Virus record (IMG/VR): IMGVR_UViG_3300012920_000105
Location: 1-37,308 of that record
DNA length: 37,308 nt
Strand: one strand, 5' to 3'
From: a virus
Below are positions 7,650-37,308 of the stretch, one piece after another. The position numbers were made by a program, and so were the translations under genes. The stretch's first letter is position 1. Every line of letters begins with the position of its first letter. The notes under the pieces were generated by a model that was not told where the DNA came from, ran no database searches, and saw only the letters and a program-made list of their open reading frames with translations.

Positions 7650-7845
7650 TATAGGTAAAGATTACAAGAATGAAGCTATGCACTACTCCGTAGGCCAAGA
7701 GGTTTACGGAGGGCATACGATTTCTGAGATAGTTGAAACAGATACTAAGTTTAGTATTTTTATTGAAAAAGATAATAGCGTTATACCTTGGAAAGACTTT
7801 AACAAAAACATGGCTATAGCAGTTGAATATAATTTAGAGTATTAA
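7627..7845 (+). CDS. Small hypothetical phage protein (72 aa)
   Basis: Overlaps the coiled-coil gene by 23 bases and ends in a TAATG overlap with the GroES-like gene. The sequence (MNLIRKISIGKDYKNEAMHY, then VGQEVYGGHTISEIV) reads as a compact beta protein. Similar short proteins occur near phage head genes by recollection only. Overlaps on both sides support it as a coupled, genuine gene. Function unknown. Confidence 0.7.
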   Translation: MNLIRKISIGKDYKNEAMHYSVGQEVYGGHTISEIVETDTKFSIFIEKDNSVIPWKDFNKNMAIAVEYNLEY

Positions 7846-8423
7846 TGCAAGGCTTGTTTAATTTTATAATTAAACCTAAAGGAAAAAGATATAACAATAG
7901 TAATGATAATCTTATATTAAATACTAATATATCTAATCATTTAAATGTTAACAGAAACGCTATTGTTTTAGCAACACCTAAGGCTATAAAAACAAATATA
8001 AAAAAAGGTGACGAAATAATTGTTCATCATAATGTTTTTAGAGAGTGGTACAATGCTAATGGAAAAAGATCCAATAGTGGTAATTATATAAACGACGAAT
8101 TATATCATTGTAATTTAGATCAAATATATTTATATAAAGTAAATAAAAAATGGGTTGCTGTAGATGGTTATTGTTTTGTTTATCCTATAATTAATAAAGA
8201 TAAATTTAAAAACAGTATAGAAAAACCAAATGTTGGTATAGTTAAATATACTGATGGTGTTTTTAACAAAGGAGATTTAGTTGGTTTTAGACCTAATATA
8301 GAACATGAGTTTATTATAGATAATGAGCTTTTGTATAAAATTAACAACAATTTTATTTCAATTAAATATGAATATCAAGGAGACGAAAAAAAATATAATC
8401 CAAGCTGGGCAAAAAGCAGTTGA
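7845..8423 (+). CDS. Putative co-chaperonin-like protein, two tandem GroES-like units
   Basis: 192 aa. No family is certain, but two successive segments follow the GroES strand order. Unit 1 has FNFIIKPKG, a turn at NAIVLATP, KKGDEIIVHHNVF, and YINDELYHCNLDQIYLYK. Unit 2 has VAVDGYCFVYPI, a ~13-residue loop, NVGIVKYT, NKGDLVGF, and EFIIDNELLYKI ending FISIKYEY. These correspond to the GroES pattern of N-terminal strand, mobile loop, GxVVAVG, VGDxVxF and xxDGEExLxxxExDIxAxx. Phage co-chaperonins (T4 gp31, RB49 CocO) help the host chaperonin fold capsid protein, which would suit a gene just before packaging and capsid genes. Assignment is from pattern only; a structure prediction would settle it. 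Confidence 0.5.
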   Translation: MQGLFNFIIKPKGKRYNNSNDNLILNTNISNHLNVNRNAIVLATPKAIKTNIKKGDEIIVHHNVFREWYNANGKRSNSGNYINDELYHCNLDQIYLYKVNKKWVAVDGYCFVYPIINKDKFKNSIEKPNVGIVKYTDGVFNKGDLVGFRPNIEHEFIIDNELLYKINNNFISIKYEYQGDEKKYNPSWAKSS

Positions 8424-26812: not shown

Positions 26813-29800
26813 ATGTACGAATTAAACGGATATTTTTACTCGCTGCAAGAAATACAAGAAGCGGCTGATAGAGATGGCATGAGCTTGCAAGAGTTTATAG
26901 ACACTAAAGGTTTAAAACCCACCGCTGAAACTTCCCAAAAAATAAAACAAAGACAAGAAGAACCAAATGGTTTTATGAAAATGGTAAACTCTGTTGGAGA
27001 GTATATTATGGGTAAGCCTGGTGATCTTAGTACAGCTTGGAATAACGGTGTTATAATAGCAGATGGTTACGATGCTACTAATGAAGCATTTGGCATAGCT
27101 GGTAATGAAAATTACACAATGACAGATGATCAAGCTAGAGGTTTTGCAAAAGCACTTAAATCAAGAGGTGATCTAAAAGAAATAAAAGGTATGAACGATT
27201 GGAATAAATCGTTTGATGAATTTGTAGAAGAGGATAGAAGATTAGCTGAAGAAGGTAAAATTGATGATTGGGGTGATCTTGGTAGAAATGTAGTTGGTGC
27301 AGTTGTTGCTACTGTAAAACACGGTCCTGGAGCGTTGTTAAGTGTAATGGCTCAGTCTATATCTAGTGGTTTAGATGATGATATACTTATGAAAGCTGGT
27401 GGTGTTGGTTTAACTTCAGCTGGTACTATGGCCGCTGTTACAGCTGGTCCAGATCCTACAGATGTAGTTACAGCGCCTGGCACATTTTTAACTACAGCTT
27501 GGGGTACTATGAGTTACGAAGTTGAGGTTATAAATACTTTTGCAGATTTAATACAAGAAGATTTAGGCCCTAATCCTACCACAGAACAAATACACGCTTA
27601 TTTTGAAGACGCTGAAAAGTTAAAAAGCTTAAAAAATAGATCAAGAGCTAGAGGCGGAACTATAGCAGCTTTTGAAATGGCTGGTTTTAAAGGTGGTAGT
27701 AAAGCGGCAAGCGCTGTTGCTACCGCTACAAAAGGTGGTAGGGTTGCTAAAACAGTAGTTGCAGGTACAGCGTCTGGTGCCACTGAGATTCCATTTAGTT
27801 CTGCTGGTGAATATTTTGGTCAAGTTGCAGCTGGTCAAGAAACAGATTTAAAAGAGGTTATGCTAGAAGGTTTAGCTGGTTTAGGTACTGCACCAGCTAG
27901 TGCAGCTATAGGCGTAACAAGTTCTTTTTTGAAAAAACCTGTTTATAAAAATAAAGGTAAAATAACAACAAAAGAAGATATATCAGACTTTTTAAACGAA
28001 GCAGATGATGCTGATATTATACTATCTGAGTTTGATATAAAAAATGACCCAGATTTACTTAATCAATATAATGATAAAAAAAGAAGAGCTTTTATTGCTT
28101 CTAAAATAGATGAAAGAATAACTGATAAAAACGATATTCAAGCGGTTGTAGATCTTGAAATACAACTAGAAGAGTTGTCAGGTAATAAGACACACAGTGG
28201 TAAAGAAAAGATTAAAGAAATAAAAGCTCAAATAGACGAAATAAGAGGTAAATACGCTACAACAGGTAGATTAAGTAATGAAGCTAGAGCAAGAGTAGAA
28301 AGTAGATCTATAATATCTGAAGGTTTGATTGATCAAAATTTTGAAGCTAACATGCAGTTTGCTAAAAAAACAGCACCACTATATAGACTTAATATAGTAG
28401 ATGATTTAACAAACGATCAAATAATAGAAAAATACGGAAAAGATAAAGACGGTGCTAACGGTTTTATTGATGGTAATGAAATAATAATAAATAAAGAAGT
28501 TGCAAAAAGAACAATAGAAGGTGGTAATACAGCTAATCATGAGTTATTACATGGTATAATAAATGCTAGTGGTAAAGCAGATAAAATAAATCAATCATTA
28601 ATAAATGAGTTCTTAGAGGTTGTAGGTCAAGAGGGTAGAGATGCTATAAACAAAAGAATACAAGACAATAGTGACGTATACACAGATGAGTATATGAATA
28701 AATTTAAAGATGAATATTTTACAATATTTTCTGATGCTATAGCCAATGGTGATGTTAAGTTTAATGAAACGGTTTTTACTAAACTAAAAGACATTATAAG
28801 AAGATTATTTCAAAATGTAGGTTTATCAAAAGTTGATTTTGAATCTGGTCAAGGTGTGTATAACTTTTTAAAAGACTACAATAGAAGTATACATAAAGGT
28901 GCTTTATCAAAAGGTATAAAAAGATCTACTTCAGGTGATGCCGCTGTAAATTCAGCTAGATTATCATTGTCAAGAAAAGTTGATGATAAAAAAATAGAAA
29001 CAGATTTTAAATCTAGACTTGATCAATTTACAGGACCAGCGGAGCAAAGAAAATACGCAAGTGATGCTGAATTTAAACAGTCACAAGATTTTGCAAATGC
29101 AGCGTTAGCATTAGAAGAAGATCCAGCTGTGCTTAAAAAAATAGAAAAAGAATTTATAAGGTATAATGTAACTCCAACAGCAGAAAAAATATCTGACGCA
29201 TCAAGAATATTATCAGAAAAATTTATTAAGACATTTGATGCTAGTAAAAATAGTTTGTTTGGTTGGGCTATGGGTAAAACACCTGTTTTAACAAAAGCTG
29301 TTAATACAGTTATAAAAGACGAAACTAAAAGACCTGACGCCACAGCAACTTCAATAGATCAGACATTTGGCGAAGATCAAACTACTATTGATATAGCTGA
29401 TGATACAGATATTAACGACGTTATACAGAATAATATAGATGGTGACAATTTAGCACCAAGATCTAAAGTTGGTCAAAATACTAAATTATTAGGTAAAAAA
29501 TTATTTGATACAGATTTAGTAAAAACAATAAAAGATAAAGCAACAGAAGTATTAGGTAAAGATTACGATGTAACTAGTGATGAGTTTATTAAATTTGTTA
29601 AAGATGAATTTAATAAAACAATAAGACCTGTTATACAGAAAAAAGTTGGTAGAGAAGCTGCATTTAGACAGTTTATAGAAGAAAATATAAACACAGATGG
29701 TAACCCTTTTCAAGAAGGTAATATATCATTAGCTGATTTAGTTCAAATGGAAAAAATGAACGACAATAAGGTGTTTATAGAAGAAATAGAAAGAAATATT

Positions 29801-32800
29801 AGTCCTAAAAAAGTAGATGCCGCGGTGTCAGCTAACAAGTTACCAAAAGACACTAACAGATTATCTGGTCCTACATTATACAAATACGCTTCACCCAGCG
29901 TGGATGATGTTGTTAATTTCTTTTATGATCAAAACGTAGGAGCTTCTACTAGAGGAACTAGAAGAGATCGTTTTTATTTAAACATGGGTATAAGAGCTAT
30001 GTTTGATATGTTGGTTACACAAGCTAGAGAGTCTGGTGTGGCTCAAAAGGATGTTGCTAAATTAGCTAAAAAGTTAGACGTACCACAAAATATTAGGTTT
30101 AGTAAAAGTAGTACTTATACAAAAGTAAACACTAAGCAGCTTGCTAATATGTTTAACAAGAAGTTTAAAAAAGTAGAGTATTATGATGTAAGTACTAATA
30201 TTGAAAGATACGCTAATGATATAGTTGAAGTAGCTAAAATATTTGAAGAAAAATACGGTGCTGGCTTTTTAGGTTTATCTATGATAAATAACAAAAAAGG
30301 TTTAAAAATAAACACTGAGCAAAGAAACCAAATAAAAGAAATATTAAAAAGAGAACTACCTAATATAAGTAAAAGAAACTCTGAGTATGCTAAAACAAAG
30401 TTTGATAAAAAATTAATTAAAAAATACCAAAACCAACCAGAGAAGCTAAAAGTTATCAATAAAAGAAACATGATGCTTCATAAAGAGTTTTGGCAAACAG
30501 TTAGAGATATAGTTTCAAAAGATAAATCTAAAGTAGTACCTTTATTACACATGTTAGAAATATCACAAAACGAAGGTAGCCATATACAAAGGTTAGGTGC
30601 TGAATATATTGGTGGTCATGTAGATATAAATCAAGTAGAACATTTTGAGCACGCTTTACAAAACGCTAATACATACAGGATGTTAATGGATGCAGCTGTA
30701 AATCAAAGTAGAAATAATTTTGATAAAACATATGAAGCTACTGTAAAAAATTATAAAATAATAGGTTTACCCAACGCTGACAACAATATACTAAATGCTA
30801 CTGATTTTAAAAACAAAATGTCTTTAGATCAATCATGGAGTGTTTTTGAAAACAATTGGTGGCAAAGATATTTTAACGAGGTTGTAGGTAAAGCTGGAGG
30901 TATAAACCCTGTTAACTTAGTAACTTTAGATGGTAAAACTTTTGCTGAAGAGTTTGGTGTTGATATATATGGTAGAAAAAGTAATTTAGCTATAGAGCAG
31001 GCTAAAAATAAAGTAAAAACAAAATATCCTGATGTACTTAAATTTAGTAAATCAAGACCTAATAATAAAATATTAAATGATCTAAATGATTATGATACCG
31101 CTTTACGTAATGCTAAAAACGTAAATGCACCTAAAAAAGGTATTAGTATATTTGACTTTGATGATACTTTAGCTACAACAAAAAGTAAAATTATAGTAAC
31201 TATGCCTGACGGTAAAGTTAAGAAAATAACACCAGCGGAGTTTGCTAAACAACATAGTAATTTAGAGCAACAAGGTGCCACATTTGATTTTAACGAGTTT
31301 AATAAAGTTGTTGATGGTAAACCAGCTTTAGCATCTAAAAAACTAGAAAAAGCAATTAAAAAGTTTGGTAATAAAGACGTTTATGTTTTAACAGCAAGGC
31401 CACAACAATCAGCAGAAGCTATATATGAGTTTTTAAAAGGTATAGGATTAGAAATACCTTTAAAAAATATTACAGGTTTAGAAAACGGTACACCACAAGC
31501 TAAAGCAAACTGGGTTGTTGGTAAAGCAGCTGAAGGTTATAATGATTTTTATTTTACAGATGATGTGTACAAAAATGTTAAAGCTGTACAAGATGCGCTT
31601 GAGCTACTTGATGTTAAATCAAAATCAAGAATAGCTTATGTTGATAGAGTAACGAAGCTTGATAAAGATTTTAATGACATAATAGAAGCTAAAACAGGTA
31701 TTGCAGCTGAAAAAGAATATAGCCAAGCTAAAGCTAGAGCTGTAGGTTCTAATAAAGGTAGATTTACATTTTTTATACCACCATCAGCAGAAGACTTTGT
31801 AGGTTTATTATATAATACGCTTGCTAAAGGTAAGCTTGGTGATAATCAAATGGCTTGGTATAAAAAGAACTTATTAGATCCATGGGCTAGAGCTAATGCT
31901 AATATATCAAGAGAGCGAATACAATTAATGAACGATTATAAAGCGCTTAAAAAACAATTAGGCGTTGTTCCAAAGAATTTACAAAAAGCTATACCAGGTG
32001 AACCATATACTAGAGAGCAAGCTGTAAGGGTTTACATATGGGATAAACAAGGTATGACTATACCTGGTTTAAGTAAAACTGATTTAAAAGATTTAAATGC
32101 TTTTGTAAATAAAAATAAAGATTTACAAATTTTTGCAGATCAATTAATAAATATACATAAAGATGATGGTTACGCATCACCTAATTCAGGTTGGCTAGCA
32201 GGAACTATAACTACAGACATACAAACTAGTATAGGTACTCAAAAAAGAGTTAAACACTTAGCCGAATGGCAGCAAAACGCTGATATTATATTTTCTGAAA
32301 AGAATTTAAATAAAATGGAAGCTGCATTTGGTAAAGCTCATAGAACAGCTTTAGAAGGTATACTAAAACGTATGAAAACTGGTATAAACAGAAGTTTTGC
32401 TAGCGACGGTATAACAGGACAGGTTACAGACTGGTTGACAAATAGTATAGGTACTATAATGTTTTTTAATACAAGATCCGCTTTGTTACAAACAATATCA
32501 GCTGTAAACTTTATTAACTTTAAAGATAATAATATATTTAAAGCTGGTAAAGCTTATGCTAATCAACCACAGTTTTGGTCAGATTTTATGACACTAATGA
32601 ACTCTGATTTCTTAGTTGATAGACGTAGAGGATTAAGAATAAATGTAAACGAAGCAGATATTGCTAACATGGCAAGGGAAAGTGGTGCAAGAGGTGTTAT
32701 AAGTAAAATGCTTGAAATAGGATTTTTACCTACACAGATAGCTGATAGTTTTGCTATTGCTTCAGGTGGTGCTACGTTTTATAGAAATAGAATAAAAACA

Positions 32801-33646
32801 TATACTAAACAAGGTTTGTCAGAAGCTGATGCTAAGAAAAAAGCTTTTAATGATTTTAGAGAAATAGCTGAAGAATCGCAACAGTCTAGTAGACCTGATA
32901 GAATATCCGCTCAACAAGCTGGTCCATTAGGTAGAATAATACTAGCGTTTGGTAACACGCCAATGCAATATGCTAGATTAATAAAGAAAGCTGCTTCTGA
33001 TCTTAAAAACAGAAGGGGTGATTGGAAAACAAATGTTTCTAAAATAGTATACTACGGTGCTGTACAAAATTTAATATTCAATGCTTTACAACAAGCTATA
33101 TTTGCTATAGCATTTGGAGACTCTGACGAAGATAAAGAAGAAGAAAAATATTTAAGTATAGCCAACGGTATGGCTGACTCATTGTTAAGAGGTGTTGGTA
33201 TCGCTGGTGCATTTGCATCTGTAGGTAAAAACGTTATAATGAGAATTATTGATGAATCAGAAAAACCTAATCCAAAGTATGAAAAAATTAGCTTTGAGTT
33301 AGCTAGAGTATCACCTCCAATATCATCTAAATTATCAAGATTAAATCAAGCTGGTAGATCTTTACAATGGAATAAAGATGAGATGATGCAAAAAGGTTTA
33401 TCATATGATAATCCTGCTTGGCTAGCAGCCGCGAACGTTATATCTGCGGCTACAAATATACCTTTAGACAGGTTGATTAAAAAAATGACTAACGTTATAG
33501 ATGCTACAGGTCAAGATGTTGAAACATGGGAAAGATTAGCATTACTAGGTGGTTGGCAAAAATGGGAGTTAGATATGGAAGACGATAGAAAAAAGAAAAA
33601 AACAAATAATAAAAAGAAAAAAGCCGGACCAACTAGAATATTTTAA
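26813..33646 (+). CDS. Giant virion (ejection) protein with zincin-like and HAD-like domains
   Basis: 2277 aa, the longest complete gene here. The N-terminus has a short module, LNGYFYSLQEIQEAADRDGM. Hydrophobic Ala/Gly stretches lie at ~160-215 and ~355-375. A zincin-like site, ANHELLHGII, has H576, E577 and H580, with E634 in DEYFTIFSDAI as a possible third ligand. A HAD-like domain spans ~1443-1600: IFDFDDTLA (D1448, D1450), YVLTARP (T1527), QAKANWVV, and YFTDDVYKN (D1583, D1584). RFTFFIPPSAEDFVGLLYN (~1648) starts a C-terminal part typical, by memory, of huge phage virion proteins. A hydrophobic helix near 2085-2102 and a Lys-rich tail (RKKKKTNNKKKKAG) close it. It is probably packaged and ejected with DNA, like T7 gp16; peptidase and phosphatase activities are untested. 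Confidence 0.8.
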   Translation: MYELNGYFYSLQEIQEAADRDGMSLQEFIDTKGLKPTAETSQKIKQRQEEPNGFMKMVNSVGEYIMGKPGDLSTAWNNGVIIADGYDATNEAFGIAGNENYTMTDDQARGFAKALKSRGDLKEIKGMNDWNKSFDEFVEEDRRLAEEGKIDDWGDLGRNVVGAVVATVKHGPGALLSVMAQSISSGLDDDILMKAGGVGLTSAGTMAAVTAGPDPTDVVTAPGTFLTTAWGTMSYEVEVINTFADLIQEDLGPNPTTEQIHAYFEDAEKLKSLKNRSRARGGTIAAFEMAGFKGGSKAASAVATATKGGRVAKTVVAGTASGATEIPFSSAGEYFGQVAAGQETDLKEVMLEGLAGLGTAPASAAIGVTSSFLKKPVYKNKGKITTKEDISDFLNEADDADIILSEFDIKNDPDLLNQYNDKKRRAFIASKIDERITDKNDIQAVVDLEIQLEELSGNKTHSGKEKIKEIKAQIDEIRGKYATTGRLSNEARARVESRSIISEGLIDQNFEANMQFAKKTAPLYRLNIVDDLTNDQIIEKYGKDKDGANGFIDGNEIIINKEVAKRTIEGGNTANHELLHGIINASGKADKINQSLINEFLEVVGQEGRDAINKRIQDNSDVYTDEYMNKFKDEYFTIFSDAIANGDVKFNETVFTKLKDIIRRLFQNVGLSKVDFESGQGVYNFLKDYNRSIHKGALSKGIKRSTSGDAAVNSARLSLSRKVDDKKIETDFKSRLDQFTGPAEQRKYASDAEFKQSQDFANAALALEEDPAVLKKIEKEFIRYNVTPTAEKISDASRILSEKFIKTFDASKNSLFGWAMGKTPVLTKAVNTVIKDETKRPDATATSIDQTFGEDQTTIDIADDTDINDVIQNNIDGDNLAPRSKVGQNTKLLGKKLFDTDLVKTIKDKATEVLGKDYDVTSDEFIKFVKDEFNKTIRPVIQKKVGREAAFRQFIEENINTDGNPFQEGNISLADLVQMEKMNDNKVFIEEIERNISPKKVDAAVSANKLPKDTNRLSGPTLYKYASPSVDDVVNFFYDQNVGASTRGTRRDRFYLNMGIRAMFDMLVTQARESGVAQKDVAKLAKKLDVPQNIRFSKSSTYTKVNTKQLANMFNKKFKKVEYYDVSTNIERYANDIVEVAKIFEEKYGAGFLGLSMINNKKGLKINTEQRNQIKEILKRELPNISKRNSEYAKTKFDKKLIKKYQNQPEKLKVINKRNMMLHKEFWQTVRDIVSKDKSKVVPLLHMLEISQNEGSHIQRLGAEYIGGHVDINQVEHFEHALQNANTYRMLMDAAVNQSRNNFDKTYEATVKNYKIIGLPNADNNILNATDFKNKMSLDQSWSVFENNWWQRYFNEVVGKAGGINPVNLVTLDGKTFAEEFGVDIYGRKSNLAIEQAKNKVKTKYPDVLKFSKSRPNNKILNDLNDYDTALRNAKNVNAPKKGISIFDFDDTLATTKSKIIVTMPDGKVKKITPAEFAKQHSNLEQQGATFDFNEFNKVVDGKPALASKKLEKAIKKFGNKDVYVLTARPQQSAEAIYEFLKGIGLEIPLKNITGLENGTPQAKANWVVGKAAEGYNDFYFTDDVYKNVKAVQDALELLDVKSKSRIAYVDRVTKLDKDFNDIIEAKTGIAAEKEYSQAKARAVGSNKGRFTFFIPPSAEDFVGLLYNTLAKGKLGDNQMAWYKKNLLDPWARANANISRERIQLMNDYKALKKQLGVVPKNLQKAIPGEPYTREQAVRVYIWDKQGMTIPGLSKTDLKDLNAFVNKNKDLQIFADQLINIHKDDGYASPNSGWLAGTITTDIQTSIGTQKRVKHLAEWQQNADIIFSEKNLNKMEAAFGKAHRTALEGILKRMKTGINRSFASDGITGQVTDWLTNSIGTIMFFNTRSALLQTISAVNFINFKDNNIFKAGKAYANQPQFWSDFMTLMNSDFLVDRRRGLRINVNEADIANMARESGARGVISKMLEIGFLPTQIADSFAIASGGATFYRNRIKTYTKQGLSEADAKKKAFNDFREIAEESQQSSRPDRISAQQAGPLGRIILAFGNTPMQYARLIKKAASDLKNRRGDWKTNVSKIVYYGAVQNLIFNALQQAIFAIAFGDSDEDKEEEKYLSIANGMADSLLRGVGIAGAFASVGKNVIMRIIDESEKPNPKYEKISFELARVSPPISSKLSRLNQAGRSLQWNKDEMMQKGLSYDNPAWLAAANVISAATNIPLDRLIKKMTNVIDATGQDVETWERLALLGGWQKWELDMEDDRKKKKTNNKKKKAGPTRIF

Positions 33647-33699: not shown

Positions 33700-34878
33700 A
33701 TGAGACATTTGCTATTTATACTATTTATGCTGTTTAGCGTTAATACTAACGCGCAGTTTTTAAAAGACGTATATAAAGATTTTTTAAAGTATGGTACTTT
33801 TTACGCTGCTGGTAACATAGAAAATGCACAAGCAGTACAACCAAACTACTTTATACGCACAAACCCAGATGATTTTTATGGTATACCACAAGTTGAAGAT
33901 AGAGCTAATTATCATCCATTTAATTATAGATATGGCTTAGGTATACGTAAATTAGCTAGATTTGATTATGAAGTAAAACCTGGAACTTTTTGGACAGGTG
34001 ATAATAAAAAAGAAAAACAAGTTGGTTTATCAGCTCCTACATCAGCAGTGCAAGGTTTAGAATATATGTTGCATTGGGAGAAAGAAAGACACAACGGCAA
34101 TGAGTTTACTAATAAAAGATTATTTGTAAGACATACAGGTGATTATCACATAGCTAAATTTGAGGCTAGAGAAACTGGTAAAATAGATTTTGAATACATG
34201 TCTGGTGAAATAAGAGCCAGGTTACCTATTGGTAAGAAGTTTAGCATATCAGCAGGGGCAATATATAGAACACATCAACGCCCTTACGGTTATAATCCTG
34301 TAGAAATATGGTTAAACGAAATGAACGAAGATGGTACAGCTGCCAACCCATGGTATACTCTTGGTTATGAATATGGTTATTTAGATATATATTATAGCCA
34401 AACAGATCAAAATGGTGTTAACTACTTTGATTGGTATTGGATTAATGAAGCTGGAGATATTGTTGCTTATACTGATCGTGATTTTAGAGACAGAGTGATG
34501 CCTAGATTATTAAACAGATATAACAAAGAAGCATGGGCTGATCTTGAAGCTTTTGGTGAAGTTGCACCTATTATAGGTTTTGACTTTTACCATTATAAAT
34601 CTAAATTTTGGCTTCACGCGTATGGCAGTTGGATATTACCTTATCACAAATACATACAAGGTAATGAAGACTTTAGTTATTTACACAGAAACAGTTGGGG
34701 TAAAGGTGGACATAATAATTTGCTTGATGGAGAGCAATGGAGTGATTATCAAGCGGGTATGGTATTTGGTGTAAAACTTAGCAAATCAATAGGAGTATTT
34801 ATTGAAGGTGAATATACTAAATTCTGGGACTCAGAAATGTTTAACTCTAACTTTGGAATTAATTACACGTTTAGATAA
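33700..34878 (+). CDS. Exported outer-membrane-type beta-barrel protein (probable)
   Basis: 392 aa. A Sec signal peptide is clear: basic start MRH, core LLFILFMLFSV, and NTNA|QF as the cleavage site with Gln at +1, as is common in Flavobacteriia. The mature part has alternating aromatic strands (RARLPIGKKFSISAGAIYRT; IIGFDFYHYKSKFWLHAYGS; GVFIEGEYTKFW) and ends INYTFR, an aromatic near-terminal strand like barrel proteins. No plug, TonB box or T9SS domain. It is the first gene of the cassette and overlaps the lipoprotein gene by TAATG. A phage-encoded envelope protein could alter receptors, block superinfection or aid release; the sequence does not decide. Confidence 0.75.
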   Translation: MRHLLFILFMLFSVNTNAQFLKDVYKDFLKYGTFYAAGNIENAQAVQPNYFIRTNPDDFYGIPQVEDRANYHPFNYRYGLGIRKLARFDYEVKPGTFWTGDNKKEKQVGLSAPTSAVQGLEYMLHWEKERHNGNEFTNKRLFVRHTGDYHIAKFEARETGKIDFEYMSGEIRARLPIGKKFSISAGAIYRTHQRPYGYNPVEIWLNEMNEDGTAANPWYTLGYEYGYLDIYYSQTDQNGVNYFDWYWINEAGDIVAYTDRDFRDRVMPRLLNRYNKEAWADLEAFGEVAPIIGFDFYHYKSKFWLHAYGSWILPYHKYIQGNEDFSYLHRNSWGKGGHNNLLDGEQWSDYQAGMVFGVKLSKSIGVFIEGEYTKFWDSEMFNSNFGINYTFR

Positions 34879-35417
34879 TGAAAAAATTATTATACATATT
34901 AACATTATTTTTAATATTAGGATGTTCAAAAGAAGAAGAAGTAATTTTAGAACCTGTTTTTGAAATTGCTTTAGATGGTCAATCATTTGATCCATATGAA
35001 AGATACTCTGTAGTTACTAGCTACGCTGGAGAAAAATGGGTTGATAATAACCTTAAAAAGATTTTTATACTATATCTTCAAATAGATGATGGAGATCCAA
35101 GATTAGATAGACAGCATTTTGCTTTATATTGTCTAGATTCAGATGCTGACGACGATGGGTCTTTATTAGATGTAGGAACTTATACATGGGAAAACCCAGA
35201 CAACAAATACGCTGGTGTAGAAATACCAGGTGATCAAGAGTATATTGTATGGAACGAAGTAATAGTATCTAAGGTAAATACATTAATAGATTTAACAGCT
35301 GAAGGAGAATTTTTTAATCCTTTTATTCAAAGAACTATGACTGTATCTATGAAGCTTGAAAATTTTCCAATTGGTATTGATATAAATTCTACGCCATATG
35401 GTTATTTAATTGATTAG
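34878..35417 (+). CDS. Lipoprotein with surface-export signature
   Basis: 179 aa. Signal peptide MKKLLYILTLFLILG followed by C16 in a LILGC lipobox for signal peptidase II. The next residues are S-K-E-E-E, matching the K/S plus two-acid lipoprotein export signal described in Capnocytophaga and Flavobacterium, so it is predicted to be displayed on the host surface. The mature domain is beta-rich and acidic (LDSDADDDGSLLDVGTYTWE; RTMTVSMKLENFPIGI) and unassigned. It is translationally coupled to the barrel gene. Options are superinfection exclusion, receptor masking, or an outer-membrane partner for lysis (o-spanin-like), though surface display argues against a periplasmic spanin. Confidence 0.78.
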   Translation: MKKLLYILTLFLILGCSKEEEVILEPVFEIALDGQSFDPYERYSVVTSYAGEKWVDNNLKKIFILYLQIDDGDPRLDRQHFALYCLDSDADDDGSLLDVGTYTWENPDNKYAGVEIPGDQEYIVWNEVIVSKVNTLIDLTAEGEFFNPFIQRTMTVSMKLENFPIGIDINSTPYGYLID

Positions 35418-35419
35418 TT

Positions 35420-35722
35420 ATGGAAGAATTATCAGAAAAGTCACAAGTAAAACTTGACATTAAAACATTAATAGGTATAATCATAGGTATTATATCTGTA
35501 GCTGGTATATGGTTTGATCTAACAGCAAAGATAAGCGCTATTGATACCACACTTGTTAGATTAGAATATAACCAAACATTAAACGATGAGTTTAGGATTA
35601 AATGGCCTCGTGGTGAAATGGGTGCGTTACCTGATGATGCTAAACAAGATTTAAGAATAGAATATTTACAAGATGATGTAAAAAAACTACAAGAAATAAT
35701 TGAAGAATTAAAAGAGAAATAA
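35420..35722 (+). CDS. Single-pass membrane protein with C-terminal coiled coil, paralogue A
   Basis: 100 aa. A short hydrophilic N-terminus (EELSEKSQVKLDIKTL) leads to one membrane helix (LIGIIIGIISVAGIWF, ~17-32), a linker with RIKWPRGEMGALPDD, and a terminal heptad helix (YLQDDVKKLQEIIEELKEK). It is two bases after the lipoprotein stop. The next gene shares its layout and VxLDxKTL, GI...GxWFxL and QDDV motifs, so the two are a tandem duplication. The layout suits an inner-membrane spanin subunit or a holin-like protein; neither can be proven. Confidence 0.75.
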   Translation: MEELSEKSQVKLDIKTLIGIIIGIISVAGIWFDLTAKISAIDTTLVRLEYNQTLNDEFRIKWPRGEMGALPDDAKQDLRIEYLQDDVKKLQEIIEELKEK

Positions 35723-35723
35723 A

Positions 35724-36005
35724 ATGGCAAAGCAAATAGGTGAAGAAACTAAAGTAACACTAGATTTAAAAACGTTAGGCACAATAGCTGTTGGTATAGC
35801 TGCTTTGGTTGGCATGTGGTTTGCTCTGCAAGCTGATATAGCTCTTGCTAAAGAATTACCTGAGCCTGTTATTGATAGAACTGAGTATGATCTAAAAGAC
35901 GAGTTGATCCGTCAGACCATAATGGATACTCAAGATGATGTGGAAGAAATAAAAGAAAGTCTAGAAAAGATAGACGAAAGATTATACGAACTTCAAAAGA
36001 AATAA
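35724..36005 (+). CDS. Single-pass membrane protein with C-terminal coiled coil, paralogue B
   Basis: 93 aa. N-terminus KQIGEETKVTLDLKTL, membrane helix LGTIAVGIAALVGMWFAL (~18-35), linker KELPEPVIDRTEYDLKDELI, then coiled coil DTQDDVEEIKESLEKIDERL. It is one base after paralogue A. Divergence outside the shared motifs, particularly the lack of the WPRGEMGALP linker, suggests the copies have distinct jobs, possibly holin and inner-membrane spanin or two partners of one complex. It is followed two bases later by the exported thioredoxin-like gene. Confidence 0.75.
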   Translation: MAKQIGEETKVTLDLKTLGTIAVGIAALVGMWFALQADIALAKELPEPVIDRTEYDLKDELIRQTIMDTQDDVEEIKESLEKIDERLYELQKK

Positions 36006-36007
36006 AA

Positions 36008-36418
36008 ATGAAATACTTAATTTTAATTTTAATTCCATTTATATCATTTTCACAAGTAGATGTACCTGATGAGTATTGGATAAATGATAGTGATTTTGAA
36101 GATAAAATAAACGTTAAAGAAGCTTTTGGTGATGATAACAACCTTCCTGTTGTTGTTGAGTTTTGGGCTAAATTTAACGAGGCTAATTGCCTTGCTGATT
36201 GGGACAAGATAGAAAACGCTATATATTATAGAGTTGATATATCTAAAGCTCCTACAGCTAAAAAGAAATATAAAGTCCGTATGGCACCTACTGTTATATT
36301 ATTTAAAGATGGTATAAAGGAAGACGTGTGGAAAGCAGGGTTAGATCTTGTATTACCTGCAGACTTAGAAGAAATACAAGAAGCAATCAACGAAGTCAAT
36401 ACGGCTTCTAAATTTTAG
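36008..36418 (+). CDS. Exported thioredoxin-fold protein lacking the CxxC active site
   Basis: 136 aa. Signal peptide MKYLILILIPFISFS, cleaved before Q16. The mature part follows the thioredoxin order: VVVEFWAKFNEANC (48-61), a helix and strand to YYRVDISKAPTAKKKYKVR, MAPTVILFKDG with the conserved cis-Pro at P94, and a final helix LEEIQEAINEV. Where thioredoxin has W-C-G-P-C there is F-N-E-A-N, so both redox cysteines are missing; the only cysteine is C61. A disulfide oxidoreductase role is therefore unlikely and a binding or chaperone role in the periplasm more likely. Position between membrane coiled-coil and peptidase genes links it to lysis or envelope remodelling. Confidence 0.78.
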   Translation: MKYLILILIPFISFSQVDVPDEYWINDSDFEDKINVKEAFGDDNNLPVVVEFWAKFNEANCLADWDKIENAIYYRVDISKAPTAKKKYKVRMAPTVILFKDGIKEDVWKAGLDLVLPADLEEIQEAINEVNTASKF

Positions 36419-36424
36419 AATAAT

Positions 36425-36460
36425 ATGTGTCCATTTTGTCCAATTTGTATTTGTAAATAA
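36425..36460 (+). CDS. Candidate 11-codon Cys-rich mini-ORF
   Basis: ATG to TAA encodes MCPFCPICICK, with four cysteines spaced C-P-x-C-P-x-C-x-C. The DNA has a repeated TGTCCA unit. It fills almost the whole gap between the thioredoxin-like gene and the M15 peptidase, and its stop is two bases before the peptidase start. It could be translated as a metal-binding peptide or act as a leader; chance cannot be excluded at this length. Confidence 0.35.
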   Translation: MCPFCPICICK

Positions 36461-36462
36461 TT

Positions 36463-36924
36463 ATGAGTAACATAAGTAAACACGTTAGTTATAAAGAAGG
36501 TGTGTATAGCATAACCGCTTTAAGGCTTGGTTTAAAAAATGATCCCTCTGATGATCATTTAAAAAATATGAAGCTTATTGCAGAAAAAGTATTTGAACCT
36601 CTTAGAACGCACGTAGGTGGTCCTATAAAGATAAATTCATTTTATCGTGGACCAGAACTTAACGCTGCTATTGGTGGGTCAGCAAAATCTCAACATTGTC
36701 ACGGACAAGCAATGGATATTGATGACACTTATGGTCACATGTCTAACGCTGCTATGTTTGACTGGATAAAAGCAAATTTAGATTACGATCAGATGATATG
36801 GGAATTTGGCACAGATCAAAATCCAGACTGGGTACATGTTAGTTATGTGCATCCAGACGAAAATAGAAAAAGATGTTTAAAAGCTTATCGTGAAGACGGT
36901 AAAACTAAATATATGGTAATATAA
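36463..36924 (+). CDS. M15-family zinc peptidase, probable endolysin
   Basis: 153 aa, one catalytic domain with no signal peptide or wall-binding domain. The motif SQHCHGQAMDID (76-87) matches S-x-H-x-x-G-x-A-x-D, giving zinc ligands H78 and D85; WVHVS supplies the third ligand H125, and E114 in IWEFG is a possible catalytic acid. INSFYRGPELNAAIGG is the usual preceding strand-loop. M15_3 enzymes cleave peptide bonds in peptidoglycan, often as phage endolysins. Without an export signal it would need a holin, which the two membrane proteins just upstream could provide. The stop overlaps the next start (TAATG). Confidence 0.88.
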   Translation: MSNISKHVSYKEGVYSITALRLGLKNDPSDDHLKNMKLIAEKVFEPLRTHVGGPIKINSFYRGPELNAAIGGSAKSQHCHGQAMDIDDTYGHMSNAAMFDWIKANLDYDQMIWEFGTDQNPDWVHVSYVHPDENRKRCLKAYREDGKTKYMVI

Positions 36925-37067
36925 TGGGAAAAATAAGTGGACCTTGCAAAGCCGCTGCAAAAAGAAAATTTAAGGTATGGCCTAGTGCTTATGCTTCGGG
37001 ATGGGGTGTAAGATGTACTAAAGCTGGTGGACCTGCTAAATTTGGTGGCGGTAAAAAGAAAAAGTAA
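36924..37067 (+). CDS. Tiny basic protein with KFKVWPSAYAS motif (47 aa)
   Basis: Starts in a TAATG overlap with the peptidase stop. It reads MGKISGPCKAAAKRKFKV, then WPSAYASGWGVRCTKAGG, and ends in GGGKKKK. The C-K-A-A-A-K-R-K-F-K-V-x-P-S-A-Y-A-S phrase recurs in small phage proteins by recollection and is not low-complexity noise. Two cysteines (8 and 31) and a Lys tail suggest nucleic-acid or metal binding; this could be an internal, DNA-associated virion protein. Function unknown. Confidence 0.7.
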   Translation: MGKISGPCKAAAKRKFKVWPSAYASGWGVRCTKAGGPAKFGGGKKKK

Positions 37068-37068
37068 C

Positions 37069-37203
37069 ATGAAAAAAGATAAAAAGTTTAAACCACATAA
37101 AATGTACTGTAAAGATGGTAGCGTTAAAAACGCTAAAACATTTGAAATGCATTTAGCTTTTAAGAAAAAAGGTTGTGGTCATACACCAATAAAAAAGAAG
37201 TAA
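37069..37203 (+). CDS. Tiny basic Cys-containing protein (44 aa)
   Basis: Begins one base after the previous stop. The sequence starts MKKDKKFKPHKMYCKDGS and ends KKKGCGHTPIKKK, with two Cys and four His among many Lys. The stop overlaps the next start in TAATG. The Cys/His content would permit metal binding, but no known zinc-finger spacing is met. Same type as its neighbours on both sides. Confidence 0.62.
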   Translation: MKKDKKFKPHKMYCKDGSVKNAKTFEMHLAFKKKGCGHTPIKKK

Positions 37204-37308
37204 TGGCTAAAGCGTATAGAGGAGTTTTAAAAGCTCGTATAAATAAACTATACGGTGGTGATGTTACTTGTAGTAAAGTTAAAAAGTTAAAGTCTCGTAA
37301 AGATGCTA
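37203..37308 (+). CDS. Small basic protein, 3' partial
   Basis: Opens in a TAATG overlap and stays open to the right edge; 35 codons are visible (AKAYRGVLKARINKLYGGDV, then TCSKVKKLKSRKDA). It is Lys/Arg-rich with one Cys, matching the style of the two genes before it. The full length and function cannot be judged. Confidence 0.6.
   Translation, partial: MAKAYRGVLKARINKLYGGDVTCSKVKKLKSRKDA

Follow-up and report, generated by a model that had tools for sequence, protein, structure and literature searches.

What do the closely packed genes at the right-hand end of the virus record IMGVR_UViG_3300012920_000105 do for the phage that carries them? The stretch that we analyzed, here called the window, is the entire linear record of 37,308 bases, and the genes in question all lie on the + strand from position 33700 onward. 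The right edge of the window is the end of the record, so this group of genes is cut on its right side. A first-pass annotation had listed a barrel protein, a lipoprotein, two paralogous coiled-coil proteins (CC1 and CC2), an exported thioredoxin fold without redox cysteines, a Cys-rich mini-open reading frame (mini-ORF), and an M15 peptidase without an export signal, and had raised the possibility of one integrated lysis and superinfection exclusion system. All of these genes are present as described, with gaps of only -1 to 6 bases within the group, and the sequence from 33700 onward is one conserved cassette. In the reading that we favor, this region holds the left and middle portions of a late cassette for host exit (lysis), and we give that reading about an even chance.

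The evidence for a unit comes from gene neighborhoods in related virus contigs. The loci were gathered by searches with the cassette's own genes and proteins, which favors co-occurrence and somewhat inflates its rates; the order of the genes is less affected by this sampling. In 93 contexts where 3.5 kb or more lies upstream of M15, we found a coiled-coil gene in 89, the thioredoxin fold in 77, the barrel in 74, and all three in 69. Gene order is kept in dozens of contigs, which is beyond chance, and a peptidase standing in variable contexts without the other genes was not seen among the 93. The barrel, coiled-coil, and thioredoxin genes, hereafter the triad, are adjacent in every one of the 106 loci with enough flanking sequence: 76 have the order barrel-coiled coil-thioredoxin, 16 have two coiled-coil genes, and the remainder are rearranged. 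The neighboring lysin, meanwhile, is exchanged. Across 103 loci in which 4 kb or more follows the barrel, the lysin is M15 in 74, of the phrog_3000/33083 type in 10, a peptidoglycan-binding plus Amidase_2 protein in 2, and Amidase_2 in 1 (any lysin, 87/103). The best explanation for a triad that stays constant while the murein hydrolase beside it is swapped is a common step in host exit. Eight triad contigs of 40-214 kb have no detected homolog of the window terminase, which makes it most likely that the triad is shared across phage lineages.

The lipoprotein (34878..35417, + strand, 179 amino acids) is a different matter. It had been proposed to form an envelope-modifying pair with the barrel, but it is no fixed partner: it occurs in 11 of 93 barrel contexts and also apart from the barrel, and proteins related to it at 57-79% identity are encoded at other positions and in other phages. 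We therefore regard it as an optional passenger, and for the same reason we reject the idea that it generally serves as the cassette's outer-membrane spanin. Surface lipoproteins of Bacteroidota carry an acidic motif behind the lipobox, and we take LILGC-SKEEE, read from the sequence of the window lipoprotein, to be a surface-export signal of this kind. Searches of Pfam and PHROGs gave no significant family match, and the best fold match of its model (predicted local distance difference test score [pLDDT] 84), LpqH at Z 8.0, is not distinctive.

The triad members have features that point to three layers of the cell envelope. The barrel (33700..34878, + strand, 392 amino acids) has a signal peptide and a predicted antiparallel barrel fold (AlphaFold model, pLDDT 75) resembling outer-membrane porins (OmpG, Z 12.1; CymA, Z 11.9), which together identify it as a probable outer-membrane beta-barrel. 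It has no Pfam match, but homologs are present in viral contigs, and a relative is found in BFVD (A0A516LKJ4, E 2.6e-25). CC1 (35420..35722, + strand) and CC2 (35724..36005, + strand; identified by alignment) are paralogous across the N terminus and transmembrane domain (TMD), with 43% identity over 37 amino acids. Hydropathy in relatives gives each a single N-terminal TMD, followed by a predicted coiled coil, acidic in CC2; their orientation is likewise a prediction. CC2 belongs to the core triad. CC1 matches phrog_20984 (E 5.9e-13) and carries the conserved motif EFRIKWPRGxMGxLPxD (EFRIKWPRGEMGALPDD in the window), and a homolog with this motif lies two genes 5' of M15 in the SAR11 phage HTVC027P, a Pelagibacter phage. 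The third member (36008..36418, + strand) is an exported thioredoxin fold. All 40 family members match PF00085 and the cis-Pro loop region is conserved, as in other thioredoxins, but this family has a signal peptide and has lost the redox CxxC throughout: in the window and the aligned family, a conserved FNxxN stands in place of WCGPC. The signal peptides and the single TMD thus place the triad in the outer membrane, periplasm, and inner membrane, and a step at the outer membrane is the simplest reading of this arrangement.

The lysin of the window (36463..36924, + strand, 153 amino acids, no signal peptide) matches PF08291 (E 2.2e-13) and the endolysin family phrog_894 (E 7.3e-28) and retains the zinc site as a conserved SxHxxGxAxD (SQHCHGQAMD) plus WVH. 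Judged by its sequence, it is a typical phage endolysin. It shares its family, active-site residues, size, and absence of a signal peptide with the M15 endolysins of Pelagibacter phage HTVC027P and Bacteroides phages, though it is at most about 47% identical to sequenced phages and differs in being embedded with the triad and a microgene (the mini-ORF). In the mechanism that we propose, this protein would be the endolysin of the cassette. The barrel would sit in the outer membrane, CC2 would hold to the inner membrane by its TMD and extend its coiled coil into the periplasm, where the redox-dead thioredoxin domain would also lie. Together, the triad members would probably make up or assemble a complex across the envelope; working alongside the endolysin, this complex may disrupt the membranes or join them, as spanins do elsewhere. 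CC1, as a paralog of CC2, would have the same layout. The Cys-rich peptide would be a cytosolic microprotein tied to the M15 form of the cassette; metal- or thiol-linked modulation of lysis by this peptide is a guess. The triad and the microgene would be new parts of a phage lysis cassette. It is tempting to go further and see in the three triad proteins a new class of trans-envelope lysis machine that replaces spanins and works with whichever lysin a phage has, its M15 version tuned by a four-Cys microprotein whose +1 frame is a signal peptide in many phages, but we consider this stronger version doubtful.

How does this arrangement compare with known ways of opening the outer membrane? The step is poorly known for Bacteroidota phages, for which a survey reports unimolecular spanins as the sole type (PMC12596118). 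The cassette stands in the place, and would have the role, expected of such a spanin in Bacteroidota phage lysis, but no complete cassette protein combines a lipobox with a C-terminal TMD. This was read from the cassette ORFs in the window, excluding the missing right part; the sole lipobox protein (34878-35417) lacks a C-terminal hydrophobic stretch. The other near comparison is with Rz/Rz1, the two-component spanin of phage lambda (PMC6139136): here too, a predicted inner-membrane coiled-coil protein and a predicted outer-membrane partner stand beside an endolysin, and relatives of the window also have a small Tyr/Asn/Ser/Pro-rich lipoprotein. However, the fixed outer-membrane partner in the window is a porin-like barrel, there is a periplasmic thioredoxin fold in addition, and no cassette protein significantly matches the PHROGs spanin families; CC2 resembles an inner-membrane spanin in layout only. 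A literature search of partial coverage found no named system of this kind. A constant three-gene envelope module beside a changing lysin is a candidate for the outer-membrane step in marine phages.

The first-pass annotation expected a holin near the M15 gene. The window contains no recognizable holin, but relatives carry a candidate farther downstream. A small lipoprotein gene lies 3' of M15 in relatives, including L132, a contig whose terminase is 96% identical, and in L012, L021, and L125 this lipoprotein is followed by a protein of 71-72 amino acids with two TMDs. These positions lie past the end of the window, from which the completeness of the lysis set therefore cannot be judged. A gene for a holin-like protein with two TMDs also lies near the barrel in 43 of 103 loci, directly 5' of it in L217, L225, and L228. 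The two-TMD protein has no family match, and its role as a holin is a guess from anatomy. Small Tyr/Asn/Ser/Pro-rich lipoproteins of the QITHVLAVT type stand beside many cassettes (e.g., L127:8269-8775, L078:1122-1511, and L012:4003-4440); those scanned have no family match except a nonsignificant hit to Cor (E 0.098). In the window itself, a Lys-rich protein of 47 amino acids (36924..37067, + strand; phrog_27331, E 1.1e-7) overlaps the M15 stop. This protein is a frequent companion and likewise lies 3' of M15 in L125 and L132; in these two contigs and L021, several small Lys/Arg-rich proteins are encoded in a row between M15 and the downstream lipoprotein. The last ORF (37069..37203, + strand, 44 amino acids, two Cys, Lys-rich) is known from sequence alone.

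The smallest member of the cassette, MCPFCPICICK (36425..36460, + strand, 11 amino acids, four Cys), had been noted as a mini-ORF but not recognized as part of a gene family. Family scans and selection show that it belongs to a real, unannotated family of peptides of 11-19 residues. In 187 nonredundant loci, tiny four-Cys ORFs number 103 on the coding strand and 13 on the opposite strand, compared with 7-12 and 19-23 after shuffling. Scans of all viral contigs with the peptide signature alone, using no neighborhood information, returned 94, 21, and 60 stretches, and a cassette gene lay within 3 kb in 87, 21, and 54 of them. Complete M15 cassettes, 74 in number, have one bona fide mini-ORF in 52 cases, two in 1, and none in 21; the mini-ORF is thus present in 53/74 M15 cassettes versus 2/24 loci without M15. 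The copies are distributed more evenly over the cassettes, at one apiece, than would be expected (P 0.0009, uncorrected for relatedness), while their place varies: after the thioredoxin gene, before or after the barrel gene, or after M15. Mycobacteria have poly-cysteine leader peptides, which are likewise encoded by very short Cys-rich ORFs. A function as a leader-peptide attenuator is nevertheless disfavored for the mini-ORF, because its position moves and, where it follows M15, it has no fixed downstream gene. The stretches examined of the named terminase relatives (elemo, phi38:1, Gundel_1, and Manatee Spring podovirus) contain no mini-ORF of the cassette type, and the elemo and Manatee records yielded no barrel. 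Zinc or thiol chemistry of the peptide can only be guessed from its four Cys and the neighboring zinc enzyme.

Could the mini-ORF simply be an out-of-frame shadow of signal-peptide DNA? Of 148 distinct copies, 88 share their DNA, at an offset of one base, with an open frame that has an ATG of its own and in almost every case encodes the signal peptide of an exported protein (the small QITHVLAVT-type lipoprotein, the barrel, the DKxxHFaaG protein, and others), and 23 more overlap another open frame that lacks an ATG. Random recoding of two overlapped signal peptides yields a four-Cys ORF in 14% and 32% of trials, so overlapping copies could partly be by-products of signal-peptide DNA. However, the same recoding of the window barrel or the DKxxHF lipoprotein gives 0/20000 each, the even spread of one copy per cassette speaks against a shadow, and 37 copies, including that of the window, stand alone, a few of them probably by chance. 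In the two largest stand-alone groups (n=7 and n=5), defined by Cys spacing only, the ratio of nonsynonymous to synonymous polymorphism (pN/pS) at non-Cys codons is 0.28 and 0.11 in the mini-ORF frame; for comparison, the +1 frame gives 2.3 and 2.4. This contrast argues, from small samples, that the stand-alone peptide itself is under purifying selection. The shadow explanation is rejected for the stand-alone copies only, and as an account of the mini-ORF as no gene at all we find it improbable. Pure chance is ruled out by the strand and shuffle scan, the per-cassette counts, and the selection. Many virus genomes harbor a conserved but unannotated Cys peptide of 11-19 amino acids, in some cases encoded by the same DNA as a signal peptide, which makes a clean case for studies of very short genes and overprinting. 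In the DKxxHFaaG lipoprotein family (phrog_26616 and phrog_29588; L333, L345, L351, and others), the signal peptide is overprinted by the mini-ORF, and several of these loci have no in-frame ATG at the overprinted signal peptide.

The envelope genes invite other explanations as well. The barrel, lipoprotein, and periplasmic thioredoxin might alter the host surface, blocking superinfection or hiding receptors, with adjacency to the lysin reflecting shared late expression as neighboring late genes. Phages do encode outer-membrane proteins: lambda Lom is one, and BFVD holds porins and other barrels, although the window barrel belongs to a different family without a Pfam match and sits in a fixed three-gene module. 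The acidic motif of the window lipoprotein fits a surface role, but no family match points to exclusion, and its sole hint is the nonsignificant Cor hit, which concerns a lipoprotein of a related cassette outside the window. Moreover, the triad stays constant while lysins change, unlike typical variable morons, and the lipoprotein is the variable part. We consider exclusion, one half of the earlier proposal, unlikely. Slightly less probable is a role for CC1 and CC2 as a class III-like holin/antiholin pair that releases M15, with the barrel and thioredoxin serving another purpose. Their paralogy, single N-terminal TMDs, and closeness to the lysin would suit such a pair, and CC1 weakly matches the holin family phrog_1296 (E 0.0072; 2/43 coiled-coil members match), but many cassettes have a single coiled-coil gene, and the nearby two-TMD protein is the better candidate by anatomy, even without a family match. 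A supporting role, in which the porin-like barrel and inactive thioredoxin aid the infected host or the phage through solute uptake or the folding of exported proteins, strikes us as very unlikely: the best fold matches of the barrel include the solute channels CymA, OmpG, and NanC, and thioredoxin folds can serve as chaperones, but adjacency to a lysin across lineages speaks for exit.

Several points also weigh against a lysis cassette. The evidence is adjacency, which is not function, and the counts are of nonredundant loci found with the cassette's own genes rather than of independent lineages. CC2 matches neither spanins nor holins significantly, and its PHROGs families are labeled unknown. 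No nearby lysin of the four searched types was found in 16/103 loci, and the association of the mini-ORF with M15 may reflect shared ancestry. Contigs are often fragments, so a missing terminase homolog is weak evidence for the shorter ones.

Which hosts do these phages infect? The window terminase is 61% identical to that of Manatee Spring podovirus and 32-44% identical to those of Flavobacterium, Cellulophaga, and Tenacibaculum phages, and from this kinship the host is most likely a member of the Bacteroidota. Phages that bear the cassette are marine and probably infect Bacteroidota, most plausibly marine Flavobacteriia. The barrel, lipoprotein, and thioredoxin-fold protein have no match among sequenced phage genomes, so isolates suggest no host. 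Homologs of the barrel in bacterial genomes occur solely on contigs within metagenome-assembled genomes, several with clear phage genes, and thus do not assign one either.

The cassette follows a gene for a polyvalent protein of 2277 amino acids (26813..33646, + strand; phrog_32588, E 6.6e-28), which lies upstream of the barrel in the majority of podovirus contigs related to the window. The gap between these two genes is 53 bases. Within the cassette, the gaps are -1 (barrel-lipoprotein), 2 (lipoprotein-CC1), 1 (CC1-CC2), 2 (CC2-thioredoxin), 6 (thioredoxin-mini-ORF), 2 (mini-ORF-M15), and -1 (M15-Lys-rich ORF). The window has no tRNAs, and a promoter scan of it gave a count below the shuffled expectation. 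Terminator-like sites number 4 versus 1.1 expected; a terminator-like stem-loop at 36392-36408 lies at the end of the thioredoxin gene, directly 5' of the mini-ORF. In L225, a PAP2-superfamily phosphatase (PF01569; 5328-5975) stands between the thioredoxin and lipoprotein genes, and L206 and L224 have ORFs of similar size. Shortly 5' of the terminase, the window encodes a GroES-like co-chaperonin (7845-8423, phrog_13932), with the same placement in elemo and phi38:1. Residues 1433-1627 of the polyvalent protein match a polynucleotide-kinase PHROG, and in L220, L224, and L225, which belong to other lineages, a separate protein of 176-189 amino acids that aligns to the polyvalent protein is found near the triad or the lipoprotein.

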